From positions 1 to 6,323 of the forward strand of contig RFHZ01000612.1 of the NCBI GenBank assembly GCA_003696125.1: 6,323 bases of DNA, read 5' to 3'. Source of the stretch: Nitrospinota bacterium (GTDB lineage Bacteria > Tectomicrobia > Entotheonellia > J063). The notes under the pieces are model-generated. The model searched no databases. It worked only from the letters and a program-made list of their open reading frames with translations, and was not told the origin of the DNA. A program made the position numbers and the translations under genes. Shown one piece after another: positions 4,206-6,323 of the stretch (its first letter is position 1; each line of letters opens with the position of its first letter).

Positions 4206-4727
4206 TCATATCAGGTAGAAGGTGGAGACCTGGAAGGTGACGTCCAGGAGATTGCGGTTGCTGGAGCGGGGTTTGATATGGAGCCGGCGGATCTTGAGGA
4301 GGTGGGGGGAGCTCTCTATCTGGTAGAGGTACTGGATGAGCTGTTTGAGCGTGACCCCTTCCACTTTGAGCTCGACCGAGGATTCACGGTAGAACTCACT
4401 CGGTGTGGTCACCGATGGTTTCATATAGACGATGTTATTCTTGAGGCCGGAGCGGCGGGCCAGGTCTTCCAAAAAGGAGAAGATGGCAAAGTTCTTCTGC
4501 CGCTTTGACAGGCGGGCATTGATATCGTTTAAGACCTGCTGCTGGGCGCGATAGGTGTTCTGCAGCATCTTCATCTCCTGCAGCTCCTGCTCTGCAGCCT
4601 GAATGAGGCGGTCGAGAACCTGCATCCGCTCCATGGCCGGAGCCAGGACAAAGAGGTAGAAGAGCAGGGCGAGGATAACGATTCCTCCGCCTATGACCAT
4701 CATCTTCTCGCGGGGGGCAAGCTGCAT
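4206..4727 (-). CDS. gspM: Type II secretion system protein M (GspM/PilO-like)
   Basis: 173 residues, a normal length for GspM. The N-terminus is a short cytoplasmic stretch (MQLAPREK) followed by one transmembrane helix (about residues 9-28, rich in I, L, V and F). A heptad-like coiled coil follows (about 33-75, ELQEMK...QQVLNDINARL). The C-terminal periplasmic part (about 80-173) should adopt the ferredoxin-like fold shared by GspM and PilO, with the typical stretch LIQYLYQIESSPHLLKIRRLHIK. GspM binds GspL in the inner membrane and helps hold the secretion ATPase at the assembly platform. ATG 4727 is well supported by AGGAGG at 4733-4738, 5 nt upstream. gspL lies upstream on the same strand but 215 nt away, an unusual gap. 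No gspN follows; the operon ends here against pdxA. The fold could equally be named PilO; the GspL-type neighbour favours GspM. Confidence 0.88.
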   Translation of the reverse strand: MQLAPREKMMVIGGGIVILALLFYLFVLAPAMERMQVLDRLIQAAEQELQEMKMLQNTYRAQQQVLNDINARLSKRQKNFAIFSFLEDLARRSGLKNNIVYMKPSVTTPSEFYRESSVELKVEGVTLKQLIQYLYQIESSPHLLKIRRLHIKPRSSNRNLLDVTFQVSTFYLI

Positions 4728-4806
4728 ACCTTCCTCCTAAGTATCTATTCTCACCCTTTTGCACTTTGAGCCATCTTCAGGCCATGCGTGACCGGAAAAA
4801 CTTTTT

Positions 4807-4877
4807 ACCGCCGAGCCCGCAGAGAACGCCGGGATACATAAGCAAAAACGCTCTGCGGACTCGGCGTCCTCGGCGGT
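4807..4877. repeat. Head-to-head arrays of a 9-bp repeat forming an imperfect hairpin
   Basis: On the plus strand, 4807-4833 reads as three 9-mers: ACCGCCGAG, CCCGCAGAG, AACGCCGGG. On the minus strand, 4877-4851 reads ACCGCCGAG, GACGCCGAG, TCCGCAGAG. Both fit the consensus NNCGCMGAG except the terminal GGG of the third left unit. The 17-nt spacer 4834-4850 is AT-rich. The first units pair perfectly over 9 bp. Left unit 2 then pairs with right unit 3 at 8 of 9 positions, with right unit 2 bulged. The element occupies the middle of the gspL-gspM gap. It resembles the CGCAGAG-type intergenic repeats I recall from many environmental genomes; that likeness is from memory. Confidence 0.8.
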
Positions 4878-4942
4878 GTAAACTTGTAGACAGCGCGAAG
4901 TTCGTGGGGCAAAAAAGTGTTCAAACTGTTAGTCATACTTAC

Positions 4943-6323
4943 TTAAGACTTCTGCAGAATGATCAACAGCTTGAACTCGACGGTATCCTCATCCAGACCG
5001 ACCTTGGCATTGGTCACCTTGACACTCTCAAAATAGTCGGACGTCTCCAGGTTCTTCTTCAGATTGTCCACACTGTCAAAGGAGTCGGTCTTCCCGCTCA
5101 TGCTGATACTCTCCGTGCTGATGAGCAGATCGAAGACATCGACTTTGATGGTGGGAGGAATCTTCTCACTCAACTCCCGTAAGATCTCGAGGGAGGAGAG
5201 TTGCGCACCGGTAATCCCTCCAAAGGCTTTCAACTTGTTCTTCCCTTCCTGGATCTTCTGCTTTGCCTGCTGAATCGGGTCCACCACCCTGGTTTGGGGA
5301 AAGGTCTCCCGGAAGACGGCGTGGATCTGAGAGCGGATCTGCTGGTAGCGCTCCTCTTTCTGTCCCAGGCGATAGTAAAACGTCCCCAGGTGCAGGCCCA
5401 GGATCAGCAGCAGGACGATACCGGCAAAGATCAGGTGTCCTTTGATCTCCTCGTAGCTCTTGCGGAAGGAAAACTCCTCCTGGCGCAGGTTCATCCCCTG
5501 TGCCGACCGGTTCAGCCCGCGCAGGGCCAGCCCCAGTCCTACGGTGAAAGAGGAGGAGAGGGGTGGGATCTGGGGGAAGAGGGCGGTCAGGCGTTCCTCC
5601 TTCCCTATGCGATGTACCGGGACCTCAAAGTGCTGGGAGAAGAACTCGCTGATCCCAGGGGTACGGGCCCCTCCCCCGCTCAGCACAATGGCCTGGAGCT
5701 CTCTTTCCTCTCCTGCCCTGGCCATATAAGAGAAGAAGGTATACTCGAGCTCCTTGGCCAGGGTGGCCAGTGCCGTCTGGATCACGGCAAAGACTTCTGC
5801 CGTCTCTCCCTCGGTGAGCTTTTTCTCTTCTGCCTCGGCAAAGGAGAGGTGAAGCTTCTTCTGGATCGCTTCGGTGATGAAATTCCCCCCCTTAGAGATG
5901 CTACGGGCCAGGAGGAGTCTCTTCCCCTGTACCACCTTCAAGGTGGTCTTGCTCGCCCCCACGTTGACCAGCCCGACCACCTCCTCTCCCTTCTCTGAAG
6001 GGTAGAGGGCGAAGTAGGTATTCAGGTCGCCGAAGAGCTCCAGGTCCACGATCTCCGGCTCGATCCCTGCTTCTTGCAACAGGGAGAGGTGGTCGGCCAC
6101 CACTTCCTTGGAAACGGCGGCCACCAGTACTTTGGCTCCCCTCTCCTGGCGTTCCAATATGCAGAAATCGACGATCACCTCTTCCACCGGGTAGGGGATG
6201 TGGGGCTCGAGCTCGTAACGAATCACCTCGCGAATCTTCCGCTCGTCGCTGAAGGGGAGTTCCAGGGTACGCAGGATCACCGACTGGGCCGGAATGGCAG
6301 AGATGATCGTTCCGGCCTTGCTC
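4943..6323 (-). CDS. gspL: Type II secretion system protein L (GspL; PilM-like plus PilN-like), 5' end cut by window edge
   Basis: 459 residues are visible. The frame stays open to the window edge and reads SAIPAQSVILRTLELPFS, the conserved beginning of this family's second subdomain, so the GTG at 6280 is internal and the true start lies outside. The cytoplasmic part (to about fragment residue 290) is an actin-like ATPase fold as in PilM: LVNVGASKTTLKVV (phosphate loop region), RSISKGGNFITEAI and VLSGGGARTPGI (adenosine motif). One transmembrane helix lies at about 297-317 (HLIFAGIVLLLILGLHLG). A PilN-like coiled coil and periplasmic ferredoxin-like domain follow to the C-terminus (LEILRELSEKIPP, then SISMSGKTDSFDSVDNL). 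GspL recruits the GspE ATPase and pairs with GspM. A pilus PilM-PilN fusion is the alternative reading. The gene ends in TAA, then 215 nt separate it from gspM, so co-transcription is likely but not certain. Confidence 0.9.
   Translation of the reverse strand, partial: SKAGTIISAIPAQSVILRTLELPFSDERKIREVIRYELEPHIPYPVEEVIVDFCILERQERGAKVLVAAVSKEVVADHLSLLQEAGIEPEIVDLELFGDLNTYFALYPSEKGEEVVGLVNVGASKTTLKVVQGKRLLLARSISKGGNFITEAIQKKLHLSFAEAEEKKLTEGETAEVFAVIQTALATLAKELEYTFFSYMARAGEERELQAIVLSGGGARTPGISEFFSQHFEVPVHRIGKEERLTALFPQIPPLSSSFTVGLGLALRGLNRSAQGMNLRQEEFSFRKSYEEIKGHLIFAGIVLLLILGLHLGTFYYRLGQKEERYQQIRSQIHAVFRETFPQTRVVDPIQQAKQKIQEGKNKLKAFGGITGAQLSSLEILRELSEKIPPTIKVDVFDLLISTESISMSGKTDSFDSVDNLKKNLETSDYFESVKVTNAKVGLDEDTVEFKLLIILQKS

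Follow-up and report, generated by a model that had tools for sequence, protein, structure and literature searches.

MITEs that have 5'-TA termini are an established kind, with Correia, ERIC and RUP as examples (PMC2229807). RUP is presumably mobilised in trans by IS630-Spn1 (PMC2229807, PMC3049150). Effects on the messages that carry such elements are reported for two of them: ERIC is said to change transcript stability, and mRNA bearing Correia/NEMIS to be cut by RNase III (PMC2229807, PMC10969869). REPs are 20-40 bp long and carry a GTAG or CGTC tag (PMC3733652).

In this report, we describe an element that lies between gspL and gspM in a 6,323-nt stretch of DNA from a Nitrospinota bacterium (hereafter, the window). 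It belongs with Correia/NEMIS, ERIC and RUP among the MITEs: it is short (204 bp), has no transposase gene, occurs in about 33 copies that cover at least half of it, and is bounded by terminal inverted repeats (TIRs) that agree at 15 of 19 consensus positions.

Results

The most conspicuous part of the locus is a pair of mirrored arrays of a 9-nt unit. An alignment of the genome's copies places these arrays at the centre of the 204-bp element, which spans 4740-4943 and contains no genes. The features are:

4206..4727, minus strand: gspM (T2SSM/PilO)
4738..4739, no strand: left TA, presumed target-site duplication
4738..4756, plus strand: left terminal inverted repeat, TAAGTATCTATTCTCACC...
4740..4943, no strand: MITE body, 204 bp, the stretch conserved among 20 aligned near-full copies of the same genome
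4807..4833, plus strand: core hairpin, left arm of three 9-nt units, of which unit 3 is imperfect
4807-4815: left arm unit 1, ACCGCCGAG
4816-4824: left arm unit 2, CCCGCAGAG
4825-4833: left arm unit 3, AACGCCGGG
4834..4850, no strand: AT-rich 17-nt loop/spacer, ATACATAAGCAAAAACG
4851..4877, minus strand: core hairpin, right arm of three 9-nt units, CTCTGCGGA, CTCGGCGTC, CTCGGCGGT
4927..4945, minus strand: right terminal inverted repeat, TAAGTAAGTATGACTAACA
4944..4945, no strand: right TA, a presumed target-site duplication that doubles as bases 1 and 2 of the gspL stop codon
4943..6322, minus strand: gspL (PilM_2/T2SSL), running off the window edge

An earlier note on this DNA had described two facing triplets of NNCGCMGAG at 4807-4877. 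Its coordinates, 9-nt period, inversion and 17-nt spacer are correct; the third left unit, however, reads CGCCGGG and deviates from the consensus, leaving two exact units and one imperfect unit on the left versus three exact units on the right. The predicted fold does contain the bulge of one 9-mer between the arms that the note had proposed, and its energy is -39.4 kcal/mol, against -26.8 +/- 3.1 for shuffled sequences (z -4.07; equalled by 0 of 200 shuffles). Given this fold and the repeat copies, the inverted-array hairpin is more than a product of chance. As for the suggested growth and loss of units, the right arm is shorter by about one unit in 3 of the 20 near-full copies, which fits loss, but these three may descend from a single event. 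Pairing in the RNAalifold structure is retained in 311 of 319 cells; because most of the outer pairs never vary, this provides no evidence for selection on the structure. A search of the window against Rfam gave no match, and among the papers listed in a literature search by the letters of the motif, the only matches were primers and unrelated sequences.

The hairpin is one of many in its genome. The assembly searched is a MAG of 4.18 Mb in 990 contigs, and a search of it with the 96-bp hairpin gave about 40 matches (E<=0.0012), many of them more than 90% identical. With a 222-bp query, some 33 places cover at least half of the element, at identities of up to 96%. Several copies sit at contig ends, which is expected because repeats break assemblies. 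When the flanks are aligned, similarity among the copies reaches far past the hairpin on both sides and then ends at borders that copies from unrelated loci share. The MITE body has a GC content of 50%, versus 57.6% for the window. Its terminal inverted repeats (5'-TAAGTARCTATKACTMAC) are imperfect, and a degenerate pattern made from them is found 37 times in the genome, versus once for the reversed control. The left border is flanked by TA in 16 of the 20 near-full copies, the right border in fewer, and both borders in 8; in a single copy (L103) both borders are flanked by TG, which is what a 2-bp duplication would leave. The flanking TA might instead be the end of the TIR and not a duplication.

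No long ORF is visibly broken by any of the 20 near-full copies. Many of them have a gene within about 25 nt on one side or both, and several fall between co-directional genes, where genes are ORF-based calls rather than curated ones. Copy ends coincide with stop codons at two further loci (L089 and L101), and a related end lies beside a stop codon at L106. At one locus (G000:C590:25-318; L067, L104), a second, degenerate element begins immediately where a full copy ends on its right side.

The earlier note had called the arrays a dispersed repeat of REP/MITE type. MITE is apt, with about 33 copies in the genome, and REP is not, given the length of 204 bp, the TIRs and the TA flanks. In favour of a REP/BIME-type palindrome mobilised by a RAYT (Y1 transposase), the element is palindromic and intergenic, and the genome has one Y1_Tnp gene. 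The size and ends just named are unlike those of a REP, however; no GTAG or CGTC tag was noted in the element in a look that was not systematic; and neither arrays nor TIRs occur in the roughly 2.4-kb locus around the single RAYT-type gene. We thus regard membership in the REP/RAYT class as very unlikely. The Y1_Tnp gene itself is an isolated ORF of 350 codons (L143, G000:C887:556-882).

The junction looks quite different in relatives. All four of the genomes compared, which are of the same class and have gspL proteins 36-39% identical, show a 4-nt overlap of gspL and gspM, and a search of the same four for the element found it in none. ORF tables for G046, G047 and G039 likewise have the two genes overlapping or nearly touching. 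Judging from these comparisons of sequence, the element at gspL-gspM is an insertion. A stable hairpin between two co-directional genes could also be a local regulator that is conserved because it serves the gspLM operon, but its sequence recurs at dozens of unrelated loci and the element is missing from the four same-class genomes; this explanation is extremely improbable. Because the repeat is dispersed and distant relatives lack it at this position, the earlier note's preference for a dispersed repeat over a hairpin conserved at its site stands.

A gap of 215 bp separates gspL from gspM. The gspL stop codon, TAA (4945-4943), is made of TA and the first base of the element, and the Shine-Dalgarno-like GGAGG of gspM (4737-4733) lies directly outside the element; therefore, the C-terminus of gspL and the ribosome-binding site of gspM would have been spared. 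When the flanks are joined with one TA, gspL reads ...CAG AAG TCT TAG, followed by GAGGAAGGT and the ATG of gspM. In protein terms, gspL ends ...LQKS-TAG, and nine bases containing GAGG lead to the gspM start. This is an ordinary, canonical operon junction, whereas the in-frame TAG is lost if both TAs are kept. Among the profiles matching gspL, PilM_2 is best, followed by T2SSL and, weakly, PilN; by these matches, the operon could belong to a type II secretion system or to a type IV pilus.

We searched for a parent transposase using PF13358, PF01609 and Y1_Tnp, in a fragmented MAG from which repeated insertion sequences may have been lost. No match to the IS630-type DDE_3 domain (PF13358) was found in the assembly. 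A derivation from IS630/Tc1-mariner would call for an IS630-type transposase with the same TIR, and none was encountered. The sole match to PF01609 in the assembly, an IS5-like transposase fragment at a contig edge (L190, G000:C772:2-232), has no matching TIR nearby and was rejected as a parent. Outside the genome, the full element gave only a 32-bp match (E 0.7) against plasmids. The exact TIR pattern matched one Heimdallarchaeota MAG among GTDB contigs and one IMG/VR sequence, both of which look like chance for a 19-mer. The pattern has almost no matches in other GTDB species or in IMG/VR, in searches that may not have included records of the window's own genome, so the element family looks lineage-restricted.

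The core of the element has a wider distribution. Another family of this genome (family 2, 27 matches; L191-L217, e.g. G000:C192:4688-4803) has the same 9-nt-unit hairpin core between different ends, TTGACAATGTTA ... TAACATTGTCGAG. In one chimera (L205, G000:C105, about 5082-5218), the left part of family 1, that of the gspL-gspM element, is joined to a family-2 core. A gapped pattern applied to 386 genomes found inverted arrays in the element's own genome and in 5 of the 385 others (four other families) versus 0 matches for the reversed control; the pattern was written after related arrays had been observed in an overlapping set of genomes, and the count is descriptive rather than an independent test. 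In one of these genomes (G313), the arrays lie inside longer repeats whose outer sequence is unlike that of the gspL-gspM element; this is less clear in the others. Seven IMG/VR stretches or contigs (L218-L224) also have inverted CGCNGAG arrays.

Discussion

The repeat family, its common borders, the TIRs, the TA flanks, the tight gene spacing in relatives and the canonical joined junction, all of which are observed, point to one history. The gspL-gspM hairpin is very probably the centre of a non-autonomous MITE that entered the gspL stop codon, then a TAG, at its TA. The element would have been moved by a transposase that worked on its ends in trans and duplicated the TA, and the empty junction before insertion would read TCTTAGGAGGAAGGTATG. 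Both consensus ends begin with TAA, and on insertion into a stop-codon TA the stop would be rebuilt at once in either orientation; therefore, gspL would be left unchanged. What looked like a strange hairpin within a secretion operon thus becomes a clear example of how a mobile element can enter a stop codon harmlessly, because its ends begin with TAA.

The earlier note had suggested that the hairpin could set the level of gspM through mRNA processing or partial termination. Scans of 4600-5050 for terminators and sigma-70 promoters gave no match. An effect of the hairpin (about -39 kcal/mol) on gspM is plausible. Within the mRNA that spans gspL and gspM, a stem of this strength could weaken coupling, in that the transcribed hairpin would loosen the translational link between the two genes; alternatively, it could be cut by RNase III, as a double-strand RNase may do here by analogy with Correia/NEMIS. 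The insertion is probably one that is tolerated and not one selected to regulate gspM.

The recurrence of the core could reflect convergence, transfer, common descent or a shared binding protein. It raises the possibility that the hairpin of 9-nt units is a module in its own right, such as a protein-binding site, which several element families have captured, with the outer TIRs secondary. The common core of the two families, their chimera, and the arrays in other genomes and in IMG/VR are consistent with such a module; yet the motif is short and GC-rich, convergence through slippage and the forming of palindromes, or transfer between elements, could produce the same picture, and the spacing of the units varies from 9 to 10. 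We hold this explanation to be possible, if doubtful. The stronger proposal, that inverted CGCNGAG arrays of 9-nt period are a portable hairpin module of small, otherwise unrelated mobile elements in distant bacteria, bound by a widespread and undescribed protein, seems to us unlikely, and we know of no binding protein for the core. If the core truly recurs across unrelated families and distant lineages, it points to an undescribed shared recognition system.

We return to the reading that we prefer, a MITE inserted at the gspL stop codon. We know of no relation in sequence between the element and Correia/NEMIS. Correia/NEMIS elements of Neisseria are likewise small and intergenic, with TIRs, 5'-TA termini and long hairpins (PMC2229807, PMC10969869); the gspL-gspM element differs from them in having no promoter match. 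RUP of pneumococcus shares small size, TIRs and TA targets (PMC2229807, PMC3049150), but is 107 bp long rather than 204 bp, and no IS630-type DDE_3 domain was found in the assembly that carries our element. ERIC of enterobacteria is also intergenic with TA termini (PMC2229807, PMC10969869), and belongs to a 127-bp class, as against 204 bp here. An IHF site is a further feature of Correia/NEMIS, and an RNase E site of ERIC. Finally, BOX of pneumococcus differs in being assembled from modular boxes and in its variable size (67-637 bp), but resembles the gspL-gspM element in supplying the stop codons of neighbouring genes, which it does in 36 cases (PMC3049150).
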